A stretch of DNA of 64,000 bases from Cohnella kolymensis (lineage in GTDB: Bacteria > Bacillota > Bacilli > Paenibacillales > Paenibacillaceae): assembly GCF_000829465.1 (NCBI RefSeq), contig NZ_JXAL01000016.1, positions 186,001-250,000 on the forward strand, written 5' to 3'. Numbering within the stretch: position 1 is the stretch's first letter; each line of letters starts with the position of its first letter. The notes beneath the pieces are model-generated. The model did not search any database, had not been told where the DNA came from, and worked only from the letters and a program-made list of their open reading frames with translations. Positions 13,432-54,480 of this stretch are shown piece by piece. The translations under genes were made by a program, and so were the position numbers.

Positions 13432-14234
13432 TCAAACATTCAATACAAACTTCTCAAGTACGTGCTTGACTCCATCTTCATTGTTGCTGAGCGTTACGAA
13501 GTCGGCGATTTCTTTCAAAGCCGGAACGGCATTGCCCATCGCCACGCCAAGGCCTGCAGCTTGCACCATCTCGTGGTCGTTCATCGCATCGCCCAAAGCG
13601 ATCGTTTCTTCCATGGGAATGCCGTAATGAGCGGCAAGGAATCGAAGGGCGTGCCCTTTGGTCCCCTCCGGATGCATAAATTCAAGATAATCGGGCTTCG
13701 ACTTCGTCAAATGCACCTCTGGTCCGAGAAGCTCACGCAGCTCCGGCAGCAGCGCGTCCAGCCGTGCAGGTTCATCGATGATAAGCAGCTTTGTTTGTTT
13801 GTCATGTCCCACAATCTTTTTGAAGTCCGGCTCGACATGGTACGGAATGTTGGATTGCTTGACGTATCCGCGAACGAGCTCGTTGCCTCCGGAACATAGA
13901 GCTTGTCATTGATGTAGCTTTGCAAATGCAGGCCGTGTTCCAAGCAGTATTCATAGAGACGAAGCGCGGCGTGCGCGGGGACGGACCGTTCATAAAGCAC
14001 TTGTTCGTCCAGCAGGTTCTTGATAAGTGAACCTTGATAGGTAATAATCGGCACATTCAGTCCGACCTGGCGGGCGATCTTCTGAGCGGAATCGAACATC
14101 CTTCCGGTGGCGATCGTAATATGGGCGCCGCGCGAGATCGATTCACTCATCGCCAGGCGGGTCGCATCCGATACCTCCAGATCATCCGTTAGGAGAGTAT
14201 CGTCAAGATCAATGGCTATTAGACGGTACGGCAT
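13432..14234 (-). pseudogene. Cof-type HAD-IIB phosphatase, frameshifted
   Basis: Two overlapping frames make one Cof-like sugar-phosphatase. The N-part begins at ATG 14234 after AAAGGAAG with AIDLDDTLL (motif I) and the GRMF segment. The C-part carries TKGHALRFLAAHYG, then LGDAMNDHEM (motif IV) near the C-terminus. The frame changes near 13888-13893, where the N-frame reads KLYVPEA and the other frame continues GGNELVRGYVKQSNIPYHVE. Adding one base there gives 267 residues, the normal size. No stop separates the two frames at the junction. It is most simply a single-base deletion, either an assembly error or a recent lesion. Confidence 0.8.
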
Positions 14235-14323
14235 CGGGGTCTTCCTTTCTGTGCAGGCAGGTATGCATTTTTTTGTCTTATTGTATCCTATACGATCAAT
14301 ATCGAAAAGCTGAACCTGCATGC

Positions 14324-14329
14324 TATAAT
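14324..14329 (+). promoter_or_regulatory. Perfect -10 box (TATAAT) upstream of the oxidoreductase gene
   Basis: TATAAT at 14324-14329, 41 bp before the start codon. No good -35 hexamer at 16-18 bp, so only the -10 is supported. Confidence 0.4.
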
Positions 14330-14369
14330 GATGGCAGTTTGAGACGGAGATGGGGAAGGGGAATGCGGC

Positions 14370-15362
14370 ATGACACGTTTACGTTGGGGAATACTCGGCG
14401 TCGCTGCTATTGGAGATCGCGCGGTTATTCCGGCGATTCAAGCTTCGGAGACGGGACAACTGCTTGCCATTGCCAGCCGGGATGAAAGTAAAGCGCGGAC
14501 GAAGGCGGAGCAATACGGAATTCCCAGATCATACGGGAGTTATCAAGCGCTGTTAGACGACCCTGATATCGATGCGGTATACATTCCGCTGCCCAACCAC
14601 TTACATAAACGATGGACCATAGCGGCAGCGCAAGCAGGAAAGCATGTACTATGCGAAAAGCCGCTGGCGATGAATGCGCAAGAGGCTCAGGAAATTGTGG
14701 AGGCCTGTGCGGCCGCTGGCGTGCATCTGGCCGAAGCGTTCATGTACCGGCATCATCCGAGAATAGCCAGAGTAAAAGAAATCATTGCGGGCGGGGAAAT
14801 CGGACAGCTGCGTGCCATCCGCGGAGTATTCACTTACAACGGCGCAGCATCTAAAGGTGATATCCGTCATGTCAGAGAATGGGGCGGCGGCGCCCTCTAT
14901 GATGTCGGCTGCTATCCGTTAAGCGCTGCCCGGCTCATTATGGGCGTGGAACCTGAGGCGGTAACCGTTCATGCGCTGTTCTCCGAGGAACACGATAATG
15001 TGGATATGATGGCTTCCGGGTTGGTAGAGTTTCCGGGGCATGTGGCTTTGACCTTCGATTGCGGCATGTGGGCGGCACCGCGCAATGAGCTGGAGATCGT
15101 CGGGACGGAAGGACGAATCGTGTTGAATCCGTCTTTCCTTCCTTCCGCCGAGACCGACGATATTGCCGTGTACATCGGAGATTTCAGCCGCAGGGAAGGT
15201 CCGTATGGGGTAGACGCCTATGTGCGCCAATCGGATCAATTCGCAAGAGTTGTGCGGGGAGAAGAACTTCCGGCATACAGACCGGAGGATTCGGTCAACA
15301 ATATGAGACTTATCGATGCTTGTCTCGGATCCGCCCGCACTCGGCAGCGTGTGACTCTGTAA
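14370..15362 (+). CDS. Gfo/Idh/MocA family NAD(P)-dependent oxidoreductase
   Basis: 330 residues. The N-terminal Rossmann domain opens with WGILGVAAIG, and the conserved catalytic-lysine motif CEKPLAMN (about residues 95-102) is intact. The C-terminal alpha/beta domain contains EAFMYRHHP and GGGALYDVGCY, typical of dehydrogenases acting on sugars, inositols or trans-dihydrodiols. The substrate cannot be deduced. GGGGAA lies upstream of ATG 14370. A small hairpin with a T-run ends the gene at about 15391-15412. Confidence 0.87.
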   Translation: MTRLRWGILGVAAIGDRAVIPAIQASETGQLLAIASRDESKARTKAEQYGIPRSYGSYQALLDDPDIDAVYIPLPNHLHKRWTIAAAQAGKHVLCEKPLAMNAQEAQEIVEACAAAGVHLAEAFMYRHHPRIARVKEIIAGGEIGQLRAIRGVFTYNGAASKGDIRHVREWGGGALYDVGCYPLSAARLIMGVEPEAVTVHALFSEEHDNVDMMASGLVEFPGHVALTFDCGMWAAPRNELEIVGTEGRIVLNPSFLPSAETDDIAVYIGDFSRREGPYGVDAYVRQSDQFARVVRGEELPAYRPEDSVNNMRLIDACLGSARTRQRVTL

Positions 15363-15387
15363 TCACCTTCGCTGCGTCAAGAACTGC

Positions 15388-15413
15388 TCGCCTGCCCGGC
15401 GGGCTTTTTATAT
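15388..15413 (+). terminator. Rho-independent terminator
   Basis: GCCTGC and GCGGGC pair around a short loop, followed by TTTTTAT. Short stem, downstream of the oxidoreductase gene. Confidence 0.6.
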
Positions 15414-15522
15414 TGCAACCAAATTCACCGATTTACCGTTGTAATAGGTAGAAGATGACGATGCCGGCAAAGAATGGAAGTCTTCCTTGCCAAGACCGTT
15501 ACAACGAGGAGGCTGTTGCTAT

Positions 15523-16521
15523 ATGAGGAACCGGTTGGTGGTTGTGATATCCGTTATTGCTTTATGTGCTGCCTTGGCCGGCTGCGGTGCCCGGAAGGCG
15601 ACGTCTGATCAGGAAACTCCTGCGCCTTCTGCGGTTTCTCCCATGCCGACGGAAACTTTGACGCCTCCGCCCAGCCCAAGCAGTGATCAAACTCTCATTG
15701 AACAGTTTCGGGCAAAGGCTTTGGCTGATGCTCCGGCACACGAGCTGCTGCAGTCTATGCGCGACATGATGGCAGGGGCAGGACCCGCTCAAGCGGATGA
15801 ATTTATCCGGGTTATGGAGTCCTATTATGAGAAGAACTTGAATGAAGCGGCAGAGAGGCTCCAAGCGGAAAATGTGCAGCAGCAGTTGCTGAAGCTCAGC
15901 TGGCCCTTCACCGAGGATCAATTGACCGGCATTGAAGACAAATCCGTACGAATGCTGGTTGAACAAACATTGGCCGGAGGCTACAAGCTGGACACCGCAG
16001 AAGGAATGGTATTCCCTGTTGTGGACTACGGCAAGCTGCTTATTAACGGAGAACAAGTGTCGACCGCAATGAAGGCCTACTTGTCGCTGATGGCAATGGA
16101 GTCGGACGCCAGATCGGCCAGCGATGCGGCGCTTGTCATTACCTGGGATGAGCTGACCAAGCGTACTCTTGCAGCGGAAAGCTACGTAATGACCTTTCCG
16201 GATTCCCCCGAACGACAGAAAGCGGAGGACCGTTTTATCCAATATCTCCAATACTATTTGACAGGCATGGATAATACTCCGATCTTCGGCACCGGCTACA
16301 AGGTTCTCCCTGACCTGAAAACCCACTATGAACAAACGGCCGTCGCGCATTCCGGAACGATAACCGGGCAGCTTACCCGGGAATTGCTGGACATCCTGAA
16401 CACAACCGGAGATGCCGTAGCGGCCAAAAACAAAAACGGCGACGAAGTCTATGTCGCGGAGTACGCCGCCTTCCGGGATTCACTGGAATCAAAAGCGCGC
16501 GCTGCGCTGCCGGGCAGCTGA
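15523..16521 (+). CDS. Lipoprotein of unknown function
   Basis: 332 residues. The signal peptide ends in LAGC with Cys20, followed by a Pro/Ser/Thr-rich linker (about 28-60) and an alpha-helical globular region with a repeated acidic pattern. No catalytic motif recognised. Start ATG 15523 follows GAGGAGG; the upstream in-frame ATG lacks a site. Likely attached to the outer face of the membrane. Confidence 0.75.
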   Translation: MRNRLVVVISVIALCAALAGCGARKATSDQETPAPSAVSPMPTETLTPPPSPSSDQTLIEQFRAKALADAPAHELLQSMRDMMAGAGPAQADEFIRVMESYYEKNLNEAAERLQAENVQQQLLKLSWPFTEDQLTGIEDKSVRMLVEQTLAGGYKLDTAEGMVFPVVDYGKLLINGEQVSTAMKAYLSLMAMESDARSASDAALVITWDELTKRTLAAESYVMTFPDSPERQKAEDRFIQYLQYYLTGMDNTPIFGTGYKVLPDLKTHYEQTAVAHSGTITGQLTRELLDILNTTGDAVAAKNKNGDEVYVAEYAAFRDSLESKARAALPGS

Positions 16522-16605
16522 CCGCCGATCATCGCGTTTTCCTCCTCATCCATTTTCCGTTACAATAGAGATGATAATGCTGCACAACAAGAGGGGAAAT
16601 ACGTG

Positions 16606-18351
16606 ATGAATGTCGTCGTTGCGACGCTGAACGCTAAATATATTCATACATCGCTCGCCTTGCGCTATTTGAAATCTTTCAGCCAAGGCGAGTTTGACGT
16701 GGGTATTGCAGAGTATACGATCAAAGACCCGGTCATGAGCATTGCCGCTGATTTGTTCTCGCGGAAGCCGGATGTGATCGGATTCTCCTGCTATATCTGG
16801 AACATCGAAGAGACGATCGCGGTTGTCGATATGATTCGCAAGGTATTGCCGGATGTGAAAATCGTGCTGGGCGGACCGGAAGTTTCATATGACACCGGGG
16901 AATGGATGGACAGGCTGCAGGCCGTGGATTTCATCGTCATGGGCGAAGGGGAGGAAACCTTCCGGGATTTGCTCCGGCAGATCGCCGGTGAGCAAAAATA
17001 CCACTTTGTCTTCGGAATGGCTTACCGTAAAGACAGAGAGGTTGTGATCACACCGCCTCGTCCGAAATTGGATCTGAACGTCATCCCGTCTCCGCACCGG
17101 TTCGAGCAGGATATTCCTTCTCTGCGCAATCGTGTGGTCTATTTTGAGACAAGCCGCGGATGTCCGTTCAGCTGCCAGTTTTGCTTGTCCAGTATTGAGG
17201 TGGGCGTCCGCTATTTCGATATGGAGCGGGTTAAGGCCGATTTGACTTACTTGATAGACAGCGGCGCCAAGCTGATCAAGTTTGTGGACCGTACTTTTAA
17301 CATCAAACGCGAATATGCGATGGAAATTTTCCAATTCCTGATCGACAACCACAGGGGATGTGTTTTCCAGTTCGAGATCACGGCGGATATTATGCGGCCC
17401 GAAGTGCTCGACTTCCTTGCGGAGAATGCGCCTGCAGGCGTGTTTCGATTCGAGATCGGCGTGCAGTCTACGAATGATCCGACCAATTTGGCGGTTCAAC
17501 GCAGACAGAACTTTGCCAAGCTGACCCGTACGGTGACGAAGGTGAAGGAAAGCGGCAAAATCGATCAGCATCTCGATCTGATCGCCGGGCTGCCTCATGA
17601 AGACTATGACACTTTCCGAAAAACGTTTAACGATGTATTCGCGCTGCGTCCGGAAGAGCTTCAGCTCGGCTTTCTCAAAATGCTGCGCGGCACCGGTTTG
17701 CGAAATGACGCCGATAAATACGGATATATTTATATGGAACGTGCGCCGTACGAAATGCTGGGCAACGATCTCATGCCTTTCGGCGATATTGTAAGGATTA
17801 AACGTGTGGAGGATGTGCTGGAAAAATTCTGGAACGCGCACCGCATGGATCGGACGATGGAATACCTGATTGAACAGGCTTACCCATCTCCCTTCGATTT
17901 TTTCCAGGCGTTCGGGGATTATTGGGAGTCCAAAGGCTGGAGCCGGATTGGGCATCAGCTCGAGGATTTATTCTCGCGCTTATGGGAATTCCTGCAGGCC
18001 GATGCGCCTGAGAATTTGGATCTGGATGTGGCGTTCGGTCTATTAAAGATCGACTACTATCTCCAGCACAAGTACAAGCCGCGGAAGCTGTGGTGGGAAG
18101 AACGTCTGGATAAAAAAGCTTGGACGACCGGCTTGAAGGACGCCGCACTACGGCTCGGTATGGATGAGCGCGATCTGCAAAAGAAAGCGGTGCTGGACCG
18201 GCTTACTTTTGATTACGCAGCCTGGATGGAAGAGGGCCGTGTGGATCGTGCCAACCCGACGGCGCTTGTCGTTCTGTACTCCGGTGAAGAGGCGCCTCCT
18301 CAGTTCGTCGCGCTGCCGCAGCCGGACGGGCAAGCGGCAGCTGCCAAATAA
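16606..18351 (+). CDS. B12-binding-domain radical SAM protein with DUF4080-type C-terminus
   Basis: 581 residues. The N-terminal cobalamin-binding-like domain (about 1-135) lacks an obvious DxHxxG cobalamin His motif and shows VLGGPEVSYD, as in this class. The radical SAM core follows with the cluster motif CPFSCQFC (Cys186, 190, 193). The long C-terminal part (from about 370) matches DUF4080. Related proteins are found in many Firmicutes but have no firm substrate. GAGGGG precedes GTG 16603/ATG 16606. It is followed 23 bp later by an aldo-keto reductase gene, possibly cotranscribed. Confidence 0.85.
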   Translation: MNVVVATLNAKYIHTSLALRYLKSFSQGEFDVGIAEYTIKDPVMSIAADLFSRKPDVIGFSCYIWNIEETIAVVDMIRKVLPDVKIVLGGPEVSYDTGEWMDRLQAVDFIVMGEGEETFRDLLRQIAGEQKYHFVFGMAYRKDREVVITPPRPKLDLNVIPSPHRFEQDIPSLRNRVVYFETSRGCPFSCQFCLSSIEVGVRYFDMERVKADLTYLIDSGAKLIKFVDRTFNIKREYAMEIFQFLIDNHRGCVFQFEITADIMRPEVLDFLAENAPAGVFRFEIGVQSTNDPTNLAVQRRQNFAKLTRTVTKVKESGKIDQHLDLIAGLPHEDYDTFRKTFNDVFALRPEELQLGFLKMLRGTGLRNDADKYGYIYMERAPYEMLGNDLMPFGDIVRIKRVEDVLEKFWNAHRMDRTMEYLIEQAYPSPFDFFQAFGDYWESKGWSRIGHQLEDLFSRLWEFLQADAPENLDLDVAFGLLKIDYYLQHKYKPRKLWWEERLDKKAWTTGLKDAALRLGMDERDLQKKAVLDRLTFDYAAWMEEGRVDRANPTALVVLYSGEEAPPQFVALPQPDGQAAAAK

Positions 18352-18374
18352 TAGAGGCGAGAGGTGACGGTTCA

Positions 18375-19364
18375 ATGGTTTATAAAGCAAGCTCCGAACG
18401 CTACGCAACGATGAAGTACAACCGCTGCGGACGCTCGGGTCTGAAGCTGCCTGCTGTTTCACTGGGATTATGGCATAATTTCGGAGGCATCGACACGTTC
18501 GAGAATGGCCGGAATTTAGTTATGCATGCATTCGATCTGGGCATCACTCATTTTGACCTGGCGAACAATTACGGACCGCCTCCGGGTTCGGCAGAAGAAA
18601 TGTTCGGACGGTTGATGGCCTCCGATATGAAGCCTTACCGCGACGAAATGGTCATCTCCACGAAAGCCGGCTACTATATGTGGGAAGGGCCTTACGGGGA
18701 ATGGGGATCGCGCAAGTATTTAGTCTCCAGCCTGGATCAAAGCTTGCGGCGGATGGGACTCAACTACGTCGATATTTTTTATCATCACCGCCCTGATCCT
18801 GAAACGCCTTTGGAAGAGACGATGGCGGCATTGGATCACATTGTGCGCTCCGGCAAAGCATTGTACGTCGGCATCTCCAACTATCGTGAGCCTCAAGCGA
18901 GAGAAGCTATCGCCATACTTAAGCAGTTGGGCACGCCATTGCTCATCCACCAGCCTCGCTACAGCATGTTCGATCGCTGGATCGAAGACGGACTTCAAGA
19001 TTTATTAGAAGAGAATGGAGTAGGCTCGATCGTCTTTTCTCCATTGGAACAGGGACTTCTTACCAATCGATATCTTGAGGGGATTCCGAAAGACTCCCGT
19101 GCCGGCGGCGCTTCCGTTTTCTTAAGCGAGAGCAGCATTACGCCTGAAAAGATGGACAAGGTCCGCCGCTTAAACGACATCGCAGCGGAACGCGGCCAGA
19201 CTTTGGCGCAAATGGCGCTCGCCTGGGTGCTGCGCGGCGGGCGGGTAACGAGTGTGCTCATCGGCGCAAGCAGGGTCAGCCAGCTCGACGACAACGTGGC
19301 CGCGCTTGACCGCTTGGATTTCACCGGCGATGAACTTGACCGTATCGAGGCTGTATTGAAGTAA
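18375..19364 (+). CDS. Aldo-keto reductase, L-glyceraldehyde-3-phosphate reductase type (YghZ-like)
   Basis: 329 residues. The sequence tracks the AKR14/YghZ group closely: CGRSGLKLPAVSLGLWHNFG, THFDLANNYGPPPGSAE, ISTKAGY, and YVDIFYHHRPDPETPLEET. The catalytic tetrad (Asp/Tyr in DLANNYG, Lys in STKAG, His in YHHR) is present. E. coli YghZ reduces L-glyceraldehyde-3-phosphate and methylglyoxal, so aldehyde detoxification is likely. GAGGTGAC precedes ATG 18375. It ends at the strong bidirectional terminator at 19371-19424. Confidence 0.9.
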   Translation: MVYKASSERYATMKYNRCGRSGLKLPAVSLGLWHNFGGIDTFENGRNLVMHAFDLGITHFDLANNYGPPPGSAEEMFGRLMASDMKPYRDEMVISTKAGYYMWEGPYGEWGSRKYLVSSLDQSLRRMGLNYVDIFYHHRPDPETPLEETMAALDHIVRSGKALYVGISNYREPQAREAIAILKQLGTPLLIHQPRYSMFDRWIEDGLQDLLEENGVGSIVFSPLEQGLLTNRYLEGIPKDSRAGGASVFLSESSITPEKMDKVRRLNDIAAERGQTLAQMALAWVLRGGRVTSVLIGASRVSQLDDNVAALDRLDFTGDELDRIEAVLK

Positions 19365-19370
19365 CGCAAT

Positions 19371-19424
19371 AAAATAGGGTTGTGCTTAACGCGATAATCG
19401 CTGTAAGCACAACCTTCTATTTTT
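19371..19424. terminator. Bidirectional terminator
   Basis: GGTTGTGCTTA pairs with TAAGCACAACC, flanked by AAAATAG and CTATTTTT. Lies between the convergent aldo-keto reductase and moaB. Confidence 0.85.
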
Positions 19425-19427
19425 CTG

Positions 19428-19949: not shown

Positions 19950-19967
19950 ATATTCCTCCCAAGTAGA

Positions 19968-19993: not shown

Positions 19994-20008
19994 CGTCTAA
20001 GTTCGTTG

Positions 20009-20518: not shown

Positions 20519-20573
20519 TACGCATCATCCGGTTCCTGTTCATTACATTCGACAAAACAGGAGCAATCTCCTT

Positions 20574-24921: not shown

Positions 24922-24980
24922 TGAGGACATGGACCTAGTCCGAATGTATGTAATTGCGCTGCCTGTTTGGGCGCTACGGG

Positions 24981-25163
24981 CGAGATCGTCTAAAATTTGA
25001 ACTAACGTAAGGTGTTTGAGCGATCGAATGGCCGAGATCGTCTAAAATTTGCACTAACGCGTCGTGTTTTTTGGCTCGTGCGGGCGAGATCGTCTAGAAA
25101 TTGAACTAACGCACCGTATTGTGAGGCTCAACTTGGCGAGATCGTCTAAAATTTGACCTAACG
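24981..25163. repeat. Tandem array A: four 27-bp cores at an exact 52-bp period
   Basis: Core GATCGTCTAAAATTTGAACT is repeated with 0-3 differences inside 27-bp units starting at 24981, 25033, 25085 and 25137, always 52 bp apart. The 25-bp intervals are poorly conserved but share a T/G-rich middle. No ORF, promoter or strong hairpin explains it. It follows trmB. Confidence 0.9.
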
Positions 25164-25384: not shown

Positions 25385-25908
25385 CTATATCCATATCGCG
25401 GCAAGCAGCGCGGTTCCCGTTCCCAGCAGGGCGCCTGCAACGGTGTCGCTTGGAAAGTGCAGTCCGAAGTAAATACGGGATAAGGCGACACCGATTGCAA
25501 TCGGCAGCAGTGCCGGGATGAGCAGCGGCTCCATGTGCATCCACGGGGTTAACATGGCGAAAGCTGCGGTAGTGTGCCCCGAAGGGAAGGACGGGTCCAT
25601 CAACGGCCGACGGTTCGTTCTGATTTGTGGGAATACTTGATGCGGACGGAGCTTGGTGCGCTCTTCTTGGCGATTGCTACTGGAATATGGCTGACGACAA
25701 TGGCCGCCAGCGCCTGCCAGCCGGCCGTACTCCACGGTTCCGGAGCAAATAGCGCACAGGCGATCGAGAAGCAAAGGCTAAAGGACGCACCGGCAACAAA
25801 GGACATCACGTGAAAAATCCAACTCAACACGGCATGATTCCAACGACTGTTAACGTGCAGGAACAACGGACGCTCCACTTCCTGAAGCATTCGATATATT
25901 CTGCTCAA
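25385..25908 (-). pseudogene. PAP2-family membrane phosphatase, frameshifted
   Basis: Two overlapping reverse-strand frames form a PAP2 lipid phosphatase. The first frame (TTG 25908, AAAGGAGATGA upstream) gives the N-terminal helices up to AIAKKSAP. The second supplies the acid-phosphatase motifs LRPHQVFP, DPSFPSGHTTAAF and SRIYFGLHFPSD. The break is at about 25650-25655. Restoring one G in CCAAG(G)CTCCG reads KKSAPRLRPHQ and completes the K-x6-RP motif, giving 174 residues. Such enzymes dephosphorylate undecaprenyl pyrophosphate or phosphatidate. Catalytic residues are all there, so an assembly indel is likely. Confidence 0.8.
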
Positions 25909-27708: not shown

Positions 27709-27892
27709 GTTCGTTGTGACTGATTCAGAATATTATTCAGCACGCGCAAGCAGAAGCACCCGCTTCTCACCTGATCGGCTTTGGCTGACGGGTATGGCGT
27801 AGCCCACGGAACACGGATTACAGGCCGCAGTGCCTTGTAACACCGTATACGTTAGGACTAGGATGCGGGTCAATGCGGCTCGCATTTTTTTG
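27709..27892 (+). promoter_or_regulatory. L20-type autoregulatory leader with attenuator
   Basis: The 5' untranslated region is about 220 nt and ends in a strong terminator: ATGCGGGTC (27863-27871) pairs with GGCTCGCAT (27877-27885) around a 5-nt loop, then seven T, still 42 nt before infC. In B. subtilis this operon is controlled by transcription attenuation when L20 binds the leader. Position and architecture fit that element; I did not verify the L20-binding fold. Confidence 0.7.
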
Positions 27893-27934
27893 TTTGCAAA
27901 TAACTCAAACGACATTTCAATTCGGAGGTGGAAC

Positions 27935-28453
27935 ATTATTAGCAAGGATCATCAAATCAACGAGGAAATTCGGGCGAAGGAAGTCCGGCTCGTAGGCTCT
28001 GAAGGCGAACAACTCGGCATCAAGCCGTTCCGTGAAGCAATGCAGATGGCCATTGACGCGAATCTTGACTTGGTTAACGTAGCACCGCAGGCGAAACCGC
28101 CGGTGTGCCGCATTATGGACTACGGCAAATTCCGTTACGAGCAGCAGAAGAAGGAAAAGGAAGCCCGGAAGAATCAGAAGATTGTCGACCTCAAAGAAGT
28201 ATGGTTTCGTGCGAACATCGAGGAACATGACTACCAGACGAAGTTTCGTAACGTGATCAAGTTTTTGAATGAGGGCGACAAGGTGAAATGTTCCGTGCGG
28301 TTCCGTGGTCGTGAAATAACTCACTCCAAACTCGGTCAGAAGATTCTGGAGCGTGTCGCGAACGAAGTCGGTGAGCTTTGTGTCGTCGAACGCATGCCGA
28401 AGCTTGAAGGCCGCAGCATGATAATGATTTTGGCTCCGAAACAAAGCCACTGA
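27935..28453 (+). CDS. infC: Translation initiation factor IF-3
   Basis: 172 residues. IF-3 keeps ribosomal subunits apart and proofreads initiator tRNA. Hallmarks are INEEIRAKEVRLVG, KPPVCRIMDYGKF in the linker, and FRGREITHSKLGQ in the C-domain. The start codon is ATT (27935), with GGAGG 6 nt upstream, giving an N-terminus like B. subtilis IF-3. Use of the rare ATT is the known self-regulation device of infC. The ATT at 27938 is a less likely alternative. First gene of the infC-rpmI-rplT operon. Confidence 0.95.
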   Translation: MISKDHQINEEIRAKEVRLVGSEGEQLGIKPFREAMQMAIDANLDLVNVAPQAKPPVCRIMDYGKFRYEQQKKEKEARKNQKIVDLKEVWFRANIEEHDYQTKFRNVIKFLNEGDKVKCSVRFRGREITHSKLGQKILERVANEVGELCVVERMPKLEGRSMIMILAPKQSH

Positions 28454-28469
28454 CAGGAGGATATAACTG

Positions 28470-28670
28470 ATGCCTAAGATGAAAACACATAGCAGCTTGA
28501 AAGACCGTTTCAAAATTACCGGAACAGGTAAAGTGAAACGCCATAAAGCTTACAAGAACCACTTGCTGTCCCACAAATCGGGACGCCAGAAGCGCGTGTT
28601 GGGAAGCCAACCGATGATGGCGAAAGGCGACGTAAACCGTATGAAACAACAACTCGCAAACTTGAAATAA
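28470..28670 (+). CDS. rpmI: 50S ribosomal protein L35
   Basis: 66 residues, very basic, opening MPKMKTHSSLKDRFKITGTG and the KAYKNHLLSHKS segment, the L35 signature. AGGAGG precedes ATG 28470. It is 16 bp after infC in the conserved operon order. Confidence 0.97.
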   Translation: MPKMKTHSSLKDRFKITGTGKVKRHKAYKNHLLSHKSGRQKRVLGSQPMMAKGDVNRMKQQLANLK

Positions 28671-28702: not shown

Positions 28703-29063
28703 ATGGCAAGAGTCAAGGGCGGATTCGTAACACGCCGCCGTCGCAATAGAATGTTGAAACTCGCTAAAGGTTACTGGGGCGCGAAGCATCGCCTGTTTAA
28801 AAAAAGCAAAAGAACAGGTAATGAAGTCCCTCATGTACGCATACCGCGACCGTCGTCAGACGAAGCGGAACTTCCGCAAGCTTTGGATCGTGCGGATCAA
28901 CGCGGCAGCCCGCCAGAACGGCCTGTCCTACAGCAAGATGATGTACGGCTTGAAATTGGCCGGCATCGAAGTGAACCGCAAAATGCTCGCCGATCTGGCC
29001 GTGAACGACATCAACGCGTTCAACTCGCTGGCCGGCGCTGCCAAAGAAAAAATCAACGCGTAA
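28703..29063 (+). pseudogene. rplT: 50S ribosomal protein L20 gene with an apparent frameshift
   Basis: The first frame (ATG 28703, GGGAGG upstream) gives [20 protein letters not shown] through HRLFKK. After the run of seven A at 28799-28805 the L20 sequence continues in the +1 frame ([15 protein letters not shown] to the stop at 29063). Removing one A yields [13 protein letters not shown] and exactly 119 residues, the B. subtilis length. L20 is needed for 50S assembly and autoregulates this operon, so a true null is implausible. An over-called A or transcriptional slippage on the A7 run is more likely. Confidence 0.93.
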
Positions 29064-30129: not shown

Positions 30130-30466
30130 TAATCGAAAGAACGCAAACAGCCGTGAAGAGGAAAAAGCGATAGGGCTCTTTTGCTCAGAGAGTATCGGAA
30201 TAGCTGAGACCGATGCCTTAATCCCTGTACGCGACGTCTCCTCGGAGCTGTTCGCCTGAACCGCCGAACCGGGCGCATTAGGGTGAATCGGGTTCGCGCA
30301 CGTTATTGCGCTGAGGTATGACATCATATCCGTACATAGCACGGTGGAATCATACTTCTGAAGGCCGCTACTGCGAAGTGCGCGGCAAACTCGGGTGGTA
30401 CCGCGGAAGGAACAGCCTTTCGTCCCAGACAGCCAGAATTGGCGTCGGGGATGAAAGGCTTTTTTG
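30130..30466 (+). promoter_or_regulatory. T-box leader upstream of ilvB
   Basis: The conserved T-box GGGTGGTACCGCGG is at 30393-30406, followed by a terminator (AGCCTTTC at 30414-30421 region pairing with GAAAGGCT before TTTTTT, ending near 30466). Stem I lies at about 30140-30230 with GCGATAGGG pairing to CCCTGTACGC. The leader reads uncharged tRNA and allows transcription when the cognate amino acid is scarce. The specifier codon is in the segment before CCCTGT; TTA (Leu) and ATC (Ile) are both possible and I could not decide. Confidence 0.9.
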
Positions 30467-30469
30467 TAT

Positions 30470-30569
30470 CGTGACGAACGATGCGTGACGCCAAAGGCGC
30501 ACTCCATTGTTCGCACGTTCGTGACGAACAACCCGTGACGCCAAAGGCGCACTCCATTGTTCGCACGTT
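30470..30569 (+). repeat. Two tandem copies of a 50-bp unit between T-box and ilvB
   Basis: The segment with GTGACGAAC and CCAAAGGCGCACTCCATTGT occurs at 30470-30519 and again at 30520-30569 with only a few differences clustered near the GATG/AACC position. It lies after the T-box terminator and right before the ilvB ribosome binding site. Confidence 0.9.
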
Positions 30570-30585
30570 GAAAGGAGGAAGAAAG

Positions 30586-32326
30586 ATGAGCGCACTGAAC
30601 GCCGCGTTGAAATCCAAAGAAGAATTGATTCAAAAATGGAGTAAGCCTGAAGTCATCACAGGGTCCGATATCCTGCTCCGCAGTTTGTTAATCGAGGGAG
30701 TCGAATGCGTGTTCGGCTACCCGGGTGGCGCTGTACTGTACATTTATGATGCGATGCACGGTTTCTCGGATTTCCATCATCTGCTGACACGGCATGAGCA
30801 GGGGGCAATCCACGCCGCTGACGGATATGCGCGTTCAACCGGCAAGGTGGGTGTCTGTATCGCCACTTCCGGACCGGGAGCCACGAACCTTGTGACGGGC
30901 ATTGCCACGGCGTATATGGATTCGGTGCCGCTGGTCGTTATCACAGGTAACGTAGCGACAAGCCTGATCGGTACGGATGCTTTCCAGGAAGCGGATATCG
31001 TCGGGATCACGATGCCGATCACCAAGCACAGCTATCTGGTCCGCAAGGCGGAAGATTTGCCGCGCATCATCCATGAAGCATTCCACATTGCGAACAGCGG
31101 ACGTAAAGGGCCGGTGCTGATCGATATTCCGAAAGACGTGTCCGCAGAGAAAATTTTATTTCAGCCTGTCGATCAGGTGGAGCTGCGCGGCTACAACCCG
31201 ACGGTTCAGCCGAACAGGAATCAACTGGACAAAATGATTCGCGCCATTGAAAAGGCGGAGCGGCCTTTGCTGCTGGTTGGCGGCGGTACGATCTATTCCG
31301 GCGCCCATGAGGAACTGTACGAATTCGTTACCAAGACCGGAATTCCGATAACGACGACTCTGCTGGGTCTTGGCGCATTTCCGAGCGGTAACGATCTTCA
31401 CGTTGGCCTGCCGGGTATGCATGGAACGTGGACAGCGAATACAGCCATTCAGAATGCCGATTTGCTGATCAATATCGGCGCTCGTTTCGACGATCGCGTA
31501 ACCGGCAAGCTGGATGGGTTCGCGCCGAAAGCGAAAATCGTTCATATCGATATCGACCTGCGGAGATCGGCAAGAATGTGCAGACCGATATCCCGATCGT
31601 CGGAGATGTCAGGGCGGTCTTGCAAATTGCCAATACACTGGCGAAACGCGCCGAGAACGCGGATGCCTGGCGCGCTCAGCTGAGCGAATGGAAAGCTGCC
31701 AAGCCGTTCAAATATATCGATTCCGACACCGAACTTAAGCCGCAATGGGTCGTATCGATGATTCACGAAACGACGAATGGCGATGCGATCGTGACGACCG
31801 ACGTCGGCCAGCACCAGATGTGGGCTGCGCAATATTATCCGTTCAACAAGCCGCGTTCATGGGTTACATCAGGCGGACTCGGCACGATGGGCTTCGGTTT
31901 CCCATCGGCCATCGGCGCACAGATGGGAAATCCGGACCGCACGGTTGTCTCGATCAACGGTGACGGCGGCATGCAGATGTGCGCGCAGGAACTCGCAGTT
32001 TGTGCGATCAACAATATCCCTGTTAAAGTTGCCATTCTCAACAACCAAGTGCTCGGCATGGTGCGGCAATGGCAGGAACTCATTTACGACAATCGCTACA
32101 GTCATATCGACCTGTCCGGCAGCCCGGACTTCGTCAAACTGTCGGAGGCATACGGCGTCAAAGCTTTCCGCGCCTCAAACAAGGAAGAAGCGCGGAGCGC
32201 ATGGGAGGAAGCATTACGGCATCCGGGTCCGGCTGTAGTGGAATTCGTGGTCCGCAAGCATGAGAATGTGTATCCGATGGTTACTCAAGGTAGCACGATC
32301 GATCAAATGATCATGGGGGATGCCGA

Positions 32327-32330
<4 letters not shown>
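30586..32330 (+). pseudogene. ilvB: Acetolactate synthase large subunit gene with an apparent frameshift
   Basis: ThDP-dependent enzyme for the first common step of valine, leucine and isoleucine synthesis. The N-part (ATG 30586, AAAGGAGG upstream) has [12 protein letters not shown], the ThDP-activating Glu in [15 protein letters not shown], and the FAD/mid domain. The frame breaks at 31557-31558 in HIDID. Restoring a C in GACC(C)TGCGG reads [18 protein letters not shown] and continues through the ThDP site GDGGMQMCAQEL to the stop at 32330, giving 581 residues. Active-site parts are intact. The stop overlaps ilvN. Confidence 0.92.
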
Positions 32331-34055
<1,725 letters not shown>

Positions 34056-43176: not shown

Positions 43177-44714
43177 ATGTTATGGAAAGCATGGCCGGTT
43201 AAATGGAAATCCGTCGCTTCCGGTGAACTGCAGGACAGTTCGGCCGATGTAATTATCGTGCTGGTCGATACCGGCATTAAGGACGGCAGCACAGCAATCT
43301 TGCATCCGGTATTGGATGAAGCGCTTCGCGACTTAGCGGGCCGCGGCGTTATTGAAGGGAAGCCGGCTGAGACGGCATTGTTGCCTACTTTGGGATTGCT
43401 CCCGCAGAAATACGCTTTATTCGCAGGCTGTGAAGCTGCGCCTTATACGTCCAAAGCTCTGCGCAATGCCGCAGGGAGCATCGGCAGTAAGCTGCTCGAG
43501 TTGAAGATCAGGACGGCGCACGTTATCGTACCTGCCGGATTATCGATGTCGATGGTCGAGAGGCAGTTATCGATTGCAGCTCCGCTTTCGTTGAAGGACT
43601 TTTGTTAAGCCTGTACCGCCGCGACACCCTGGAGAAATCCGGCCGCGTGCAAGCCGCACTCGAAGAAGTTGTCTTTGTTCTTGAAGATCAGCAATATATT
43701 GCGGATTGGAATCAAGGTGTGGAGCATGGCAGACAGGTGGCTGACGCAGTCTGTTACGCTCGGGAGCTGACGAACAAGCCGTCTAATCTGTTGACACCTC
43801 AGGTGTTGGCCGAGCAGGCCCAGTCATTATCGGACCAATACGGCTTTGAGTGCCGTATTTATAATGAGGAAGAAGCTGCCAAAGAGGAAATGGGCGGCTT
43901 GTTAGCCGTTGGCGGAGGCAGTATAAATCCGCCTCGAATGATTGTGATGCGTTATACGGGTGCGCCTGATTCCAAAGAAATTCTAGGCCTGGTGGGCAAA
44001 GGCATCACTTTCGACGCCGGCGGAATATCTCTGAAGCCGTCGCATGGCATGGAAGAGTTTATTTCAGACATGGGCGGCGCTGCGGCGGTATTCGGCGTTA
44101 TGAGAGGACTCGGCTCGTTAAAGCCGCCGATCAATGTCGCAGCCGTCGTTGCAGCTGCTGAAAATATGCCGTCCGGCAGCGCCTATAAGCCTGGCGATGT
44201 AATAACGACCTATAGCGGAAAAACCATCGAGGTGCTTAACACCGATGCCGAAGGGCGCATCGTTCTGGCGGATGCAATGACAACCGCGATTCGAGCCGGC
44301 GCTACACAGCTCGTGGATATCGCAACCTTGACGGGCGCGGTAATGCATGCGTTGGGCGATCTTACCACCGGCGCTTTTACGAACGAGGACGCTTTTCTGC
44401 AGAGCTTTATTCAAGCCGGGAACCGGGCGGGTGAGTACGTATGGCCGCTGCCTTTGCATCCTGAATACCGCAGCTTGATCAAAAGCGAAGTTGCCGATAT
44501 GAAAAACCACGGCGGACCTTGGGCAGGCGCGATTGCAGGCGCATTGCTGATCGGCGCGTTCGCGGAGGAACGTCCATGGATTCATCTCGATATCGGCGGA
44601 ACAACCTGGATGTGGAGCGATCGGGGATTCGAGAGCAAAGGCGGAACGGGTGTTATGGTCCGGACGCTGCTTGAATATATTCGATACGAAACGGAACATC
44701 GTAGAATGACATAA
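43177..44714 (+). pseudogene. pepA: Leucyl aminopeptidase (M17) gene with an apparent frameshift
   Basis: Two frames, 43177-43608 and 43602-44714, make one M17 aminopeptidase. The N-domain runs to ERQLSIAA. The catalytic domain begins EGLLLSLYRRD and contains VGKGITFDAGGISLKP, the NTDAEGRIVLADA metal motif and TLTGAVMHALG. The break is at about 43580-43590. One added base gives 512 residues, close to family size. For example GCT(G)CCGC would read AAAAFVEGLLLSLY. All metal ligands are encoded, so the peptidase is probably functional in the cell. Confidence 0.88.
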
Positions 44715-48397: not shown

Positions 48398-48450
48398 GTC
48401 AGAACCTTTTACTTGAACACCGTATTCTTTTAATCAGAGAAATGTATCAA

Positions 48451-49146
48451 TTACATTTTCGTCGCTACCCACCCTCGGAGCAGATATGAGCCGTAGAATG
48501 TGAGGACATTGCCAAATCCAGCGGTCTGTAAAAGATCGAGCACTCGGCTTTCTGGTACTATTGGTGTGGCTCCCATGCGCTTCATCCCGCACCCGATGAT
48601 TTCCGGGGATAGCCCAACCAGCTCCCTGTGCTTTGACAACGCAGCCATTTGCCTGCTGTGCTCAGGACTCCCATGCTCACCAACCATACACGCAAGGATG
48701 AGAGGAGCTTCCGGCTTCAAACGTTTTGCAATTCCTTTCAGGATAGAGAGCTTTGAACCATCATCAGGTATGAAATGTAAAACTAATAGGCATGTTGCGG
48801 CGTCAAATGGCTCAGCATCTACAAGTTCTTCCACGATTCCCTTGTAAAGGCTTACTCGATCCTCAAATCCCAATGATTCAGCTCGCTTCTTTGCAATTTC
48901 AAGCATTTGACCAGAAGGATCAACTCCGGTGAATGTCCATTTAGGATTAGGAGGACCAAAGGCCGATAGTTCCTTGCCACCCCCGACGCCGACGACAAGT
49001 AGCCTTGCACTATCTTCAAGTGTAGTTTTGAGGAATGCGTAACACATATCGAACAACTGATCATAAGTGGGGATAAGTTTCTTGATTTGCTGTTCATATT
49101 CCTGCCCGTATTCGCCATCGAAGTCTACAATTTGCGTATCCGTCAA
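48451..49146 (-). CDS. Class I SAM-dependent methyltransferase
   Basis: 231 residues. Motif I is LLVVGVGGGKEL, motif II FTGVDPSG, with LHFIPDDG after strand 4. The architecture is close to CmoA/UbiE-like small-molecule or tRNA methyltransferases, without a clear assignment. Start is TTG 49146 with GGAGAGG 6 nt upstream. Single gene in the accessory patch. Confidence 0.82.
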   Translation of the reverse strand: MTDTQIVDFDGEYGQEYEQQIKKLIPTYDQLFDMCYAFLKTTLEDSARLLVVGVGGGKELSAFGPPNPKWTFTGVDPSGQMLEIAKKRAESLGFEDRVSLYKGIVEELVDAEPFDAATCLLVLHFIPDDGSKLSILKGIAKRLKPEAPLILACMVGEHGSPEHSRQMAALSKHRELVGLSPEIIGCGMKRMGATPIVPESRVLDLLQTAGFGNVLTFYGSYLLRGWVATKM

Positions 49147-49236
49147 GTATATCCTCTCCCTATTGGCTTCGAACGGTCTACCCTATGGCCACCATGCTAC
49201 AACCCTAAAGGTAGAACTATTAGCGGAGAGCAATGA

Positions 49237-49842
49237 TCATGGGGCCGTTGCGAACTCGTTGGCTGTGGTGAGGGTGGCGAGAGAGCCCAGAATGTTCTGG
49301 ACAGAGAAGCTGTGCAACTCCTCGTTGAAGCTGCCGCAGCAGTCCTGGAGGACGACCAGTGTATAGCCGAGGTCGGCGGCGTCGCGGGTGGTCGCCTCGA
49401 CAACCCAGTTCGTGGCTACGCCAGCGAGGACGAGCGTTTGGATGCCTTTGAAGGTGAGGTAGCGAGCGAGCTCGGTGTCGTTGAACGCGCTGACGCCGCG
49501 TTTTATCATCACGACTTCGTTCTCGACCGGAGCCAACGCCTTTAGGAACTCAGTCCCCCAGGTGCCTTCGACCAAAGCATCGCCCTGTATGACTCCAGCC
49601 CAGAACGGGACATCCCCATTCAGCTCTCGGTGACCGGGCCTGAAGGCGACGCGGACGTGGATGACCGGCAAGCCCTTGGTGCGGGCAGCAACGAGCGCTT
49701 TCTCGGCGTTCTCGATTGTGCGGGTTTGCTCCAGATGTGCGGCGACTCCCATCGCGGCAAACTTACCCTCGGGATGAACCACGTCGTTGACGAAATCCAT
49801 GAAAAGAATGGCGGTCTTGCCTAGGTCGATGCTTTTCAACAT
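49237..49842 (-). CDS. Isochorismatase-like cysteine hydrolase lacking the catalytic Cys
   Basis: 201 residues. The family fold is clear (ILFMDFVND with catalytic-type Asp16, MIKRGVSAF with Lys114, GVATNWVVEATTRDAADLG). At the nucleophile position, where active members have Cys (as in ATDVCV or TDMCV), this protein has Val147. It is therefore probably not a classic hydrolase. The gene is richer in G+C than its neighbours, suggesting acquisition from another lineage. ATG 49842 has GGAGGA upstream. Confidence 0.8.
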   Translation of the reverse strand: MLKSIDLGKTAILFMDFVNDVVHPEGKFAAMGVAAHLEQTRTIENAEKALVAARTKGLPVIHVRVAFRPGHRELNGDVPFWAGVIQGDALVEGTWGTEFLKALAPVENEVVMIKRGVSAFNDTELARYLTFKGIQTLVLAGVATNWVVEATTRDAADLGYTLVVLQDCCGSFNEELHSFSVQNILGSLATLTTANEFATAP

Positions 49843-50082
49843 CAGTTCCTCCTCTACATGAGTGATGACAGGCCGGCCAACCCGGCCACCGCAAAATAGG
49901 CGGCTTTAGTATTATACGATATTATTCTATTATATACCTTATTTTATAAGTATTACCATTTTTTTCTTTGATGGACAGGATCTGCGTACAACCACCACAA
50001 TGGGTTAATTGACTAGCGCGACAAGCGGCGCAGTGACATTCGGGAACGGCGCAGCGAAATGGCTGAGATGCTTGGTATCAAT

Positions 50083-50544
50083 TTATGGTTCCCGTTGTGG
50101 CCATATCGTTTCTAGTATAATGCCGATGTTGTCGGTGAACTGCATGAGGTTTAAGGTTCCTTGTTTGATGATGGGAGTCATGGGTACACCGAAGCGGTCC
50201 AGCCTACTTCTGAATGCAGAAGCTGACTCTTCGTCGGGGAGCCCGAAGGAAATGTGCTGCAGGGCACCGGAGACAAAGACCATTTTCTGCAATACTTCGG
50301 GATGGGTATGAATGAGGGCGTCTGCCTGTTCGACAAAATGCAAGCCCCATGATTCGCACGAACCAGGTTTGATCATTGCATGTCTACCGTGAAGGGGATT
50401 TGCCGGTCTGATCCCTGCCTCATGCAGTTCCATGCCTAGTACATTTACATAAAAGCTCACTGTTTCGTCCAAATTTGACGTAATCAATGCGATATGATGG
50501 AATCCTTGCCACGGGGGCGTTATTTCAAGATGCTCCTCTCCCAT
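50083..50544 (-). CDS. VOC family dioxygenase-like protein
   Basis: 153 residues. His in FHHIALITSNLDETVSFYVNVLG, HFVEQAD and GIILETIWP give the vicinal oxygen chelate metal ligands. The length suggests one two-module VOC unit, as in lactoylglutathione lyase or extradiol dioxygenase relatives; the substrate is unknown. AGGAGG lies 10 nt before ATG 50544; earlier in-frame ATGs are too close. Confidence 0.8.
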   Translation of the reverse strand: MGEEHLEITPPWQGFHHIALITSNLDETVSFYVNVLGMELHEAGIRPANPLHGRHAMIKPGSCESWGLHFVEQADALIHTHPEVLQKMVFVSGALQHISFGLPDEESASAFRSRLDRFGVPMTPIIKQGTLNLMQFTDNIGIILETIWPQREP

Positions 50545-50553
50545 TACCATCAT

Positions 50554-51110
50554 TCCTCCTAAGAATATAAAGGACCATAAACTATTTTATGACGGTAGTG
50601 ATCATCAGTATTACGCTAACGGGAACGATAGCTCAACGATGATCACGCTTCTTTTGTGTAACGTGGATGCGCCGTTCGTAAGTTAGCGACAGCTCTCGAG
50701 TTCCACCGCCATTCGAAAGGCTTCGACATATTGTTGCCGAGGCTTTTTTCGGTTAAATACGGACCGCTATCGGGAACTGACACATGACAGGCGAAAGGCC
50801 GCGGCAGCAGCCGGCTCACAGTTACACGTCGGCCCGGTGTGCGATTACACATTTAGGCGTTGTAAACAGACGCTAATCTGCGTGAAATGGCGTGGAAGCT
50901 GCGTGGCTGTAAGCGCAAATCCGTTATCGGGAGTTTACATCTGTTTACCTGACGAGGGAGAGCAGACATATCTTGCGCTCGTTTTTATAACGCTGAAAGT
51001 GACGAATAGATAGCAAAGGGTTACACGAACAATTATTTTAATCTATAATAATAGTAATAAGCTTTGTTAGGGTTATGGTATGCAATTCTTAGGTTATAAG
51101 GAAGGTAAAA
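50554..51110. other. Intergenic region upstream of mqo
   Basis: About 560 bp without a convincing gene. A reverse-strand frame of 69 codons (50643-50852) lacks a ribosome binding site and family signal. The right end holds a good promoter (51021-51049). Confidence 0.5.
51021..51049 (+). promoter_or_regulatory. Promoter of mqo
   Basis: TTACAC (51021-51026), 17-bp spacer, TATAAT (51044-51049). Confidence 0.7.
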
Positions 51111-52629
51111 ATGATCAACAAACAAACTAGAACAGACGTAATCTTAATTGGTGCCGGAATTATGAGTGCGACTTTGGGATCACTGTTGAAAGAATTAGCA
51201 CCGGACTGGAAAATCACAGTGTTTGAGAAGCTCGCAAACGCGGGTGAGGAAAGCTCTAACGAATGGAATAATGCGGGCACGGGGCATTCGGCACTCTGCG
51301 AACTCAACTACACCGTCGAAAAACCGGACGGATCCATAGATATTAGCAAAGCTATACAAATTAATGAACAGTTTCAGGATTCAAGGCAGTTTTGGTCTTA
51401 TCTTGTAAACAGAAATCTGATACGTAAACCGCAGGACTTTATCATGCCATTGCCTCATATGAGCTTAGTACAAGGGGAACAAGATGTAACGTTCTTAAAA
51501 AAACGGTTTGAAGCGCTGTCTAACAATCCCCTGTTTCAAGGGATGGAATTTTCCGATGACCCGGAAAAACTGATGGAATGGCTTCCGATTATGATGAAAG
51601 ACCGTACATCGGATGAACCTATAGCGGCAACAAAAATCGACTCTGGCACTGATGTCAACTTTGGCGCTTTAACGCGCATGATGTTTGACCATTTAAAGAG
51701 TAAAAACGTCGATATAAAATTCAACCATAATGTTGATGATATTAAACGTACCAGCGACGGCTCGTGGGAATTGAAAGTGCGGAATGTCGATAGCGGTACT
51801 GTCGAACACCATACTGCAAAATTCGTCTTTGTCGGCGGCGGCGGAGGAAGCCTGCATTTGCTGCAAAAATCCGGTATTCCTGAGGGAAAACATATTGGAG
51901 GTTTTCCGGTAAGCGGACTATTTATGGTATGTAACAATCCGGATATTGTAGCGCAGCATCATGCAAAAGTATACGGCAAAGCGCCGGTTGGTGCTCCTCC
52001 AATGTCTGTTCCGCATCTTGACACAAGATTTATCGACAACAAAAAATCGTTGCTCTTTGGACCGTTTGCCGGCTTCTCACCAAAGTTTTTAAAAACCGGT
52101 TCAATGTTTGATTTGTTAACTTCCGTAAAACCGAATAATCTCGTAACGATGTTGGCGGCAGGCGCAAAAAACGTTTCATTGACAAAATACCTGATTCAGC
52201 AAGTAATGTTATCGAAAGAAAAGCGCATGGAAGCTTTACGGGAGTTTGTCCCGAACGCCAAAAGCGAGGATTGGGATTTAGTGGTAGCGGGTCAACGTGT
52301 GCAGGTTATCAAAGATACTGATGCCGGAAAAGGAACGCTTCAATTTGGTACGGAAGTTATTAGTGCCGCTGATGGCTCGATCGCTGCATTGCTCGGCGCT
52401 TCTCCGGGTGCTTCTACCGCCGTTTCCGTCATGCTTGACGTAATAAAAAAAATGCTTTCCGCAACATATAAAAGCGTGGGAGCCGAAAATAAAAGAAATG
52501 ATTCCTTCTTATGGCGTGTCACTGTTGAAAAACCCAGAGCTTATCCGCGAAATTTATACTTCAACAGTGCGAACCCTTGGTCTTAGCGAAAACTTGCCGT
52601 TACAGATAGCACGCCGAACCGTATCATAA
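51111..52629 (+). pseudogene. mqo: Malate:quinone oxidoreductase gene with an apparent frameshift
   Basis: FAD-dependent, membrane-associated enzyme that oxidises malate and passes electrons to quinone. The N-terminus has [17 protein letters not shown] (FAD site), [24 protein letters not shown] and [18 protein letters not shown]. The frame breaks at the A4 run 52486-52489. Dropping one A reads [20 protein letters not shown] and continues to a stop at 52629, giving 505 residues. Without this the C-terminus is garbled and short. AAGGAAGG precedes ATG 51111. The gene is more A/T-rich than most neighbours. Confidence 0.9.
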
Positions 52630-52816
52630 ATAACGAATTTTCTATGCTAGCGGATACGATAACTCAATACACAGAAGGCTGCTTTGGTAGCCTTTTCAGC
52701 TAATTGGCAGGATACTTGCCTACAGGAACAAATGTTCGGTTATAATGTGAGAAAAGAGTAAGCGTGTTTACGTAGACTCTAAATTAGACACGAGCAACTT
52801 CCTGGAGGATATTATT

Positions 52817-52953
52817 ATGCCTATCCGCAACTTCAACAAAAAACTGAAATGAAAGTTATCGAGTGCTTCAATTGTGTAACAGCATATCCAGTACCGGTTA
52901 ATGTCGGATGTGCGATTTGTCCTACTTGTGGTCAGAAATCTTGCTCCGAGTAA
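52817..52953 (+). CDS. Tiny overlapping ORF pair ending in a Cys-rich (zinc-ribbon-like) peptide
   Basis: An 11-codon frame (ATG 52817, TGGAGG upstream) ends in ATGA that overlaps the start of a 34-codon frame (52849-52953) reading CFNC, then CAICPTCGQKSC. The paired cysteines suggest a small metal-binding knuckle. Either it is a translationally coupled leader and mini-protein or a single gene broken by an indel. The 52630-53122 stretch holds no other supported gene. Confidence 0.35.
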
Positions 52954-53122
52954 TGCGACACTGTGAAATCTGAATGAATCATGATCCACATGAAGAGCTG
53001 CGTTATCGAAGGTGTGATTGATTTTAACGATCCTGCTGCGGGAAAATTCGCTGTCGACGGCGAATGGATTTTTAGCTTTATGCCTATCCACGTCATATGA
53101 TGAAATCGGGAGGCGAATGCTC

Positions 53123-53293
53123 ATGTACAAAACAATGTATGACCTTGCTGCTGAAATAGCTCAGGATGTTATAAAAGCAAGAGGGGAAGCCATTGATGGC
53201 CAGAAAGAGTTAATCGAAGCTTACCTTAGTGATGAAGCAATTACGGAGTTATACAAAAAAATCTTTAGTGTTTTATGTAATCCATTAAAATAG
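53123..53293 (+). CDS. Small helical hypothetical protein (56 residues)
   Basis: 56 residues, predicted all-helical, no Cys. GGGAGG lies 9 nt before ATG 53123. Short but well-spaced. No family recognised. It converges on the oxalate decarboxylase gene 10 bp away. Confidence 0.45.
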   Translation: MYKTMYDLAAEIAQDVIKARGEAIDGQKELIEAYLSDEAITELYKKIFSVLCNPLK

Positions 53294-53302
53294 GATTCAA
53301 GT

Positions 53303-54480
53303 TCAGAGCCCCGGGTATTTGACCACGGGCCATTTCTCCTTGCGCAGTGCGTTCATAAGCTCTGATCCTGCATTTAAATTGTCCTGTACCAATTGACGAG
53401 GAGTCAGTGCCATCCACTGGTTCAACGACACGTCTTCAAATCGGTCACTTTTGAAAATTTCCAGAAACCAAAGGGTTTGGTTCCCGGTGTTCTGAATGTA
53501 GTGCCCGTACGCGAATGGTACGTATCCTACGTCACCCGCTCGGTAATCGAATGTTCGGGCCGTACCATTGGATGCGAAGACCGTCATGCGTCCCATACCC
53601 GTGAGGTAATACTGCACTCATCGTTATTCGGGTGCCAATGCATTTCTCTCATTCCGCCCGGTTCAATTTCAACCAGCGCCGCCGCAATCCTGGTGGATAT
53701 GGGGAAGTTGGTTGAATCAACGATACGCACCGTCCCGCCGGGAGTTCTTATCGGATTTTGCGCAAGCAGCCGATGTGTGAGAGTCTTCGGCACTGTACCA
53801 TAAGGATCCGGTACTTTCTGGCTTTCCATTGTGCCAGGCACCTCCGCTTGGAATATATATCGCTGCTTGGTGGGGATGTTCGCAAAGGCGGTTTCCGGTA
53901 CGCCGAAATTCGCCGAGAGCACGTCCCTTGGCGTATGAGCGAACCAATCGGAGATGGAGAAGGTGTTCAGGTCCGAGAAGCTCCCGTCGTCGAAGACAAG
54001 CAAAAACTCGCAGCCTTCCTCCAGCCCTTGTATGGAATGAGGAATGCCGGGGGGGAAATACCAGAGATCGCCTGCGCCTACATCGGCGATAAAGTTCCGT
54101 CCGTTCTGGTCAACGGCAGTAATGCGTGCCTTCCCCAAAATCATGAACGCCCATTCCGCTTGCTGATGCCAATGTAACTCACGAACACCCCCGGGGGTGA
54201 GACGCATATTAACGCCTGCAAGACTAGTGGCGATAGGCAGTTGTCTAACCGTCACTTGCCGGGACCAGCCGCCGTGGCTTAATTCCATATGAGTGTCGGA
54301 AAATGAAAACTTCAAGTTAGGGACCGTTCCGGCATCGGTAGCCGGCGGAACCAGCAGGTCGGGGTTCTCAAGATCCCTCATGACGTCCCGGGGACCGAAA
54401 TCAGTTGCGCCTGCGCCATCTTTCCTGATGGGATGCGGAACATTAACCATGCCGAATGGATGAGGTCCGTACTGCATCAT
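53303..54480 (-). pseudogene. Bicupin oxalate decarboxylase-like gene with an apparent frameshift
   Basis: Bicupin like B. subtilis OxdC/OxdD. Cupin 1 has His103, His105, Glu109 ([12 protein letters not shown]) and His148 (PPGIPHSI). Cupin 2 has [13 protein letters not shown] after correcting a G loss at about 53613, and [11 protein letters not shown]. Uncorrected, the first frame ends at 53584. With one G added it is 392 residues. The lid, SENST in OxdC with the catalytic Glu, reads SDLNT here (169-173). Start ATG 54480 follows GAGGGGAG. It may convert oxalate to formate and CO2, or favour oxidation. Confidence 0.85.

Follow-up and report, generated by a model that had tools for sequence, protein, structure and literature searches.

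Errors that shift reading frames in Ion Torrent data are known from two settings close to the one considered here. In the part of Bragg et al. 2013 on which we draw (PMC3623719), high-frequency indels (HFIs) are defined by replicate runs, consist chiefly of A/T insertions or C/G deletions, arise about once per 1000-2000 bp and result in frame-shifts in assembly; among the strand-asymmetric HFIs, C and G losses predominate, with 82% in runs of two to three. A study of Listeria, again in the portion on which we draw (PMC12046094), reports that single-base indels of Ion Torrent assemblies lie in homopolymers, on average 5.5 long and chiefly of adenine, and that genomes from this platform make up a disproportionate share of those that RefSeq excludes for many frameshifted proteins. 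Here we analyze a 64,000-nucleotide stretch of DNA (the window), part of contig C16 of a draft assembly of Cohnella kolymensis, in which eight genes, including those for ribosomal protein L20 (rplT) and two enzymes of branched-chain amino acid synthesis (ilvB and ilvC), are each split between two reading frames. We conclude that these eight frameshifts are almost certainly consensus errors, of one base each, in a draft made on an Ion Torrent PGM, i.e. an assembly artefact, and infer that the reads themselves carry the errors.

The published draft of the permafrost bacterium "Cohnella kolymensis" B-2846 was obtained on an Ion Torrent PGM with a 314v2 chip at 17.92x, its contigs from SPAdes and CLC being merged with CISA; it comprises 34 contigs of 1 to 765 kb totaling 4,344,717 bp at 50.5% G+C (PMC4714128). 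The assembly studied here has 4,344,717 bases in 34 contigs, the largest seen being of 765,106 bases, with a contamination estimate of 2.42%. Thus, total length, contig number and largest contig all agree with the published PGM draft, which this assembly in all likelihood is (JXAL01), since so exact a match in length and contig number can scarcely be accidental; G+C is 50.6% over the 876 kb that we took, and LeuA is 91% identical to a Cohnella LeuA. The draft report gives 4,731 genes by RAST and 3,851 by the NCBI pipeline (PMC4714128), and this gap of 880 genes fits the presence of many split genes, a connection that the report itself does not state. In the draft report and in two further papers naming Cohnella kolymensis, neither of which has the word 'frameshift', we found no statement that this assembly is frame-broken, the type description (IJSEM 2018) lying outside that search.

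A first-pass annotation of the window, made from the sequence alone, had claimed that eight genes are each split by one frame change and had attributed this to read-error indels. All eight frame changes are present where it had placed them, as indicated by profile searches for seven of the genes and by relatives for the PAP2 gene. They are listed below with their positions in the window; the indel sites were located by protein-to-DNA alignment allowing frame changes, and the sources are the proteins of relatives against which each gene was read:

13438..14234, minus strand: split gene for a HAD-type phosphatase (PF08282), one base short at 13884-13892, broken in 4/4 sources
25388..25908, minus strand: split gene for a PAP2-family phosphatase (PF01569), one base short at 25651-25653, broken in 5/5 sources
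28703..29063, plus strand: split rplT, ribosomal protein L20, one extra base in an A7 run at 28799-28805, in 4/4 sources by the syntenic count and 5/5 by frame-aware alignment
30586..32330, plus strand: split ilvB, acetolactate synthase large subunit, one base short at 31555-31558, in 5/5 sources
32982..33975, plus strand: split ilvC, ketol-acid reductoisomerase, one extra base in an A7 run at 33795-33801, in 5/5 sources
43177..44714, plus strand: split pepA, M17 aminopeptidase, one base short between 43534 and 43584, in 3/3 sources
51111..52629, plus strand: split mqo, malate:quinone oxidoreductase, one extra base in an A8 run at 52445-52452, in 7/7 sources
53303..54480, minus strand: split oxdC-like gene for a bicupin oxalate decarboxylase (TIGR03404), one base short at 53614-53616, in 7/7 sources

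Two of these sites are less sharp than the rest: one of the four sources for the HAD gene lies six bases off, and the three sources for pepA disagree, with two of them pointing to 43573-43584.

Matching of the split proteins to their families showed that in seven of the eight genes the two pieces belong to one family or enzyme, of which they cover complementary parts. The two pieces cover positions 1-112 and 127-255 of PF08282 (HAD), 1-38 and 30-114 of TIGR01032 (L20), 2-301 and 300-555 of TIGR00118 (IlvB), 2-277 and 275-330 of NF004017 (IlvC), 1-455 and 449-496 of NF003604 (Mqo), and 1-269 and 270-367 of the 367-position model TIGR03404 (OxdC). In PepA the M17 N-terminal domain is recovered in one frame (E 6e-5, 23.3 bits, just under the cut-off of 23.4) and the M17 catalytic domain in the other. 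The split of the PAP2 gene rests on the relatives, a Pfam match being obtained for its second piece and none for its first. Six of the genes, i.e. all but mqo and oxdC, were also matched in syntenic stretches of 3-5 genomes from this genus, and the window copy needs the frame change against each source. The tail of mqo (residues 446-491 of the window ORF) has a match in 8/24 relatives, always in a second frame, and no match in the other 16 of the 24 searched. For oxdC, 16/24 relatives give a long match, with frames of 393-476 codons as against one of 323 and a separate one of 104 codons in this genome. As for the restored lengths reported earlier for two of the proteins, 119 amino acids is the length of L20 in 5/5 relatives and 330 that of IlvC in 3/5, the remaining two having 340 and 267, the latter in a relative (G015) whose ilvC is itself broken.

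To place the window within its genome, one pipeline was used to compare the proteins of five relatives both with this genome and with the other relatives, a gene being counted if it had at least two sources at 80% coverage and 50% identity. Genes with a single source (15 in this genome, 11 to 20 per relative) were dropped before the count. The analysis covered about a fifth of the genome, and the counted genes, which lie on contigs C16, C3, C14, C6 and C1, represent 127 kb of checked gene. Of 140 such genes 16 are frame-broken, all of them according to every source, which gives a density of about one break for every 8 kb of consensus gene sequence checked. The corresponding figure is 4/556 for four of the relatives (Fisher p 8e-9), or 9/664 with the fifth, G015, included (p 1.6e-7); individually, the relatives have 2/161 (G022), 0/121 (G020), 0/148 (G003), 2/126 (G023) and 5/108 (G015), and G022 and G023 have four breaks between them, a single one of which is supported by all sources. 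By place, the breaks affect 6/38 genes in the window, 4/30 in the rest of C16, 3/29 on C3, 2/22 on C14 and 1/5 on C6. The 38 window genes retain one antisense shadow ORF (28425-28652, antisense to rpmI by position), and mqo and oxdC, which were found separately, stand outside the count of 16/140. As breaks occur on several contigs (four of the five with usable synteny), the window is not special but a fair sample of a fault that is spread over the assembly. Two more LeuA-like genes, at C16:4972-6467 and C3:73195-74657, each match in two pieces and are perhaps further such breaks.

Other ways of counting were also applied. When genes were chosen by conservation, before widening to other contigs, 10/68 were broken here (at least two sources) vs 2/100, 5/108, 0/54, 0/95 and 0/64 in the relatives. 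A choice by longest ORF gave 14/78 majority breaks here vs 5, 12, 5, 1 and 1 in the relatives, and was dropped, as antisense shadow ORFs interfere. A reference-free periodic Markov model, the sensitivity of which is low (it finds just 3/8 of the known breaks), reported 19 events in 716 kb here vs 8 in 797 kb of the relatives under a strict limit, and 40 vs 21 under a looser one, with 6.3 per 100 kb on C16 and 5.0 elsewhere. The relative with the most breaks, G015, is a single complete contig; judging by position and length, its broken genes include the neighbors ilvN, with two changes, and ilvC, the frame of which begins late (267 amino acids) and is broken at a different place from the ilvC of the window.

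The broken genes do not look like decaying ones. Their median identity to the relatives is 71, as compared to 75 for the intact genes (Mann-Whitney p 0.90), and over 42 comparisons identity is 73.4% before the break and 76.1% after it. Furthermore, each of the 16 has a single frame change. Relaxed selection, the mark of a pseudogene, is hence not seen in them, their conservation being equal to that of intact genes.

The nature of the indels is informative in its own right. Altogether there are 18 breaks (the 16 counted, together with mqo and oxdC), of which all but the two on C14 could be placed; for two genes of C16 one of three sources gave a spread placement and the other two sources were used. 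Every one of the seven placed gains falls within an A/T run of 5-8 bases, while all nine placed losses leave runs of one or two bases, so that an A/T run of at least five accompanies 7/7 gains vs 0/9 losses (exact test p 9e-5). C or G forms the longest run at five of the nine losses (HAD, ilvB and three on C16). Long A/T runs are by no means always affected: the checked genes here contain 26 such runs of 7 or 8, breaks were placed in five of these, and the other 21 are in frame as written. The first-pass annotation had anticipated this division, with gains in A runs and losses in short C or G runs, and its hint largely extends to other contigs. Among the gains, the A7 runs of rplT and ilvC were correctly identified and gains in A/T runs recur on other contigs, but the A4 run given for mqo is in fact the A8 run of 52445-52452 in all seven sources. 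As for the losses, C or G forms the longest run at the ilvB site, as had been suggested, and the base lost from PAP2 and oxdC is unsettled. As a separate observation, runs of six G/C bases are scarce in the checked genes of this genome (0.8 per 100 kb vs 5.8-11.5 in the five relatives), the difference being smaller over all fetched DNA (7.6 vs 8.6-14.2); this scarcity may be due to long G/C runs being under-called.

Taken together, platform, spread across the genome, lack of decay and the contrast between gains and losses all support read-error indels as the cause. The consensus would then carry errors of two kinds, namely gains of one base where A or T is repeated 5-8 times, and losses of one base from singlets or doublets, which are often of C or G; these are also the most frequent forms of HFI. 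As HFIs recur in many reads over one site within a run, they can survive into a consensus of low coverage, and the organism's own genes would presumably be intact. The affinity to the HFIs, as far as the cited part of PMC3623719 goes, lies in the single-base A/T gains, in losses that fall at C or G in five of nine cases, and in the frame-shifts of the assembly. The differences are that HFIs occur there at one per 1000-2000 bp in reads, and the breaks here at about one per 8 kb of checked gene in a consensus; and that the class is defined there by replicate runs and would be known here from one consensus. With the Listeria assemblies (PMC12046094, the same portion as above) this genome shares frameshifting single-base indels, their location in homopolymers and adenine as the most affected base. 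However, those assemblies show a mean of 14.5 allele differences per 1,748 loci, far below the one gene in nine seen here, and that figure was measured against Illumina data of the same isolates.

Several observations weigh against this explanation. Four of the nine losses (those in PAP2, pepA and oxdC and a single one on C3) could not be ascribed to a missing C or G. On the C1 stretch none of 16 genes is broken. On C14, both broken genes are short and of weak conservation and their breaks could not be sharply located; the count without them is 14/138. In two of the 16 broken genes most sources also align across an in-frame stop, which is perhaps overhang past the break. In the cited part of PMC3623719, moreover, only 29% of single-base HFIs fall in homopolymers, as against 7/7 of the gains here, and ordinary PGM flow-call errors under-call long homopolymers, which is the opposite of the A7-A8 gains; going by that part of the study, these gains would fit the HFI class only and not the ordinary flow-call errors.

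Real frameshift mutations, whether from gene loss in the strain, changes that arose in culture or damage over thousands of years in permafrost, would be the obvious biological alternative. Replication slippage favors long A/T runs, not runs of one or two, and the location of every gain in an A/T run is what such mutation would give, whereas 9 of the 16 placed indels leave just such short runs. Real decay is further unsupported because the broken genes are as conserved as the intact ones, and equally so on both sides of the break. Moreover, rplT is an essential or almost essential gene, ilvB and ilvC serve the synthesis of branched-chain amino acids, about one checked gene in nine would have to be affected, and the sequencing platform accounts for the whole pattern; we accordingly give real mutation only a slight chance. 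Equally biological, and slighter still in our estimate, is the idea that the A/T-run gains (A7 in rplT and ilvC, A8 in mqo) are real, with slippage of RNA polymerase or programmed ribosomal frameshifting compensating for them. Slippage of this kind takes place in A/T runs, where 7/7 gains lie, and polymerase slippage at such runs has been reported for some endosymbionts, which resemble this genome in having breaks in A runs of conserved genes. They differ in that here 9/16 placed breaks are losses leaving runs of one or two, in a genome of 50.6% G+C. Neither polymerase slippage nor programmed frameshifting can explain the nine losses, because these have no long run to slip on, and no break was placed in 21 of the 26 A/T runs of 7-8 that the checked genes contain. 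Nor is the split frame conserved at the same site in relatives, as would be expected of programmed frameshifting: the relatives' proteins read through in one frame for the six syntenic genes and, in seven cases each, for mqo and oxdC, the exception being ilvC of G015, which is broken elsewhere.

A mixed version, in which the losses are sequencing errors and the gains in rplT, ilvC and mqo are real, with full-length protein made through polymerase slippage on A7-A8 in a free-living bacterium of ~50% G+C, strikes us as hardly credible. On the whole, a genuine biological origin, be it mutation, slippage or programmed frameshifting, is very unlikely. A technical alternative is that the merging by CISA put damaged second copies here, and both the combination of SPAdes and CLC contigs in the draft (PMC4714128) and the contamination estimate of 2.42% could be cited in its favor. 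But 38 genes across most of the window match within the corresponding stretches of relatives, each break is one frame change, and a search of the whole genome gave no second close copy of leuA, mqo or oxdC, the three genes searched for, so that a merge error too seems highly improbable. Consensus errors of the PGM draft are hence the explanation that we adopt, and the frameshifts are a matter of data quality, not new biology.

The genome is the representative of its species in the collection that we searched. Should the observed rate hold throughout, extrapolation from 16 breaks in 127 kb of checked gene to 4.34 Mb, of which 85% is taken to be coding, gives ~450 apparently split genes (Poisson range ~260-750). 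Pangenomes and the numbers of genes and pseudogenes would then be wrong, as would any claim that this permafrost strain cannot synthesize branched-chain amino acids or has no intact gene for L20. The result is of little biological interest, being rather a useful warning on this assembly and a caution for the mining of such drafts.

Several features lie beside the split genes. Upstream of rplT there is an L20 leader (27742-27897) with 50.1 bits, below the Rfam gathering cut-off of 58.7, and before ilvB a T-box leader (30144-30430) with 71.5 bits, below the cut-off of 93; a default Rfam scan reports neither. The gap before the 3' end of the PAP2 gene contains four copies of a 28-base repeat (GCGAGATCGTCTAAAATTTG..CTAACG) at 24980-25163, of which this genome has no other occurrence when up to 3 mismatches are allowed. 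Finally, between the T-box and the start of ilvB a direct repeat of ~36 bases, noticed by eye, occupies positions 30485-30570.

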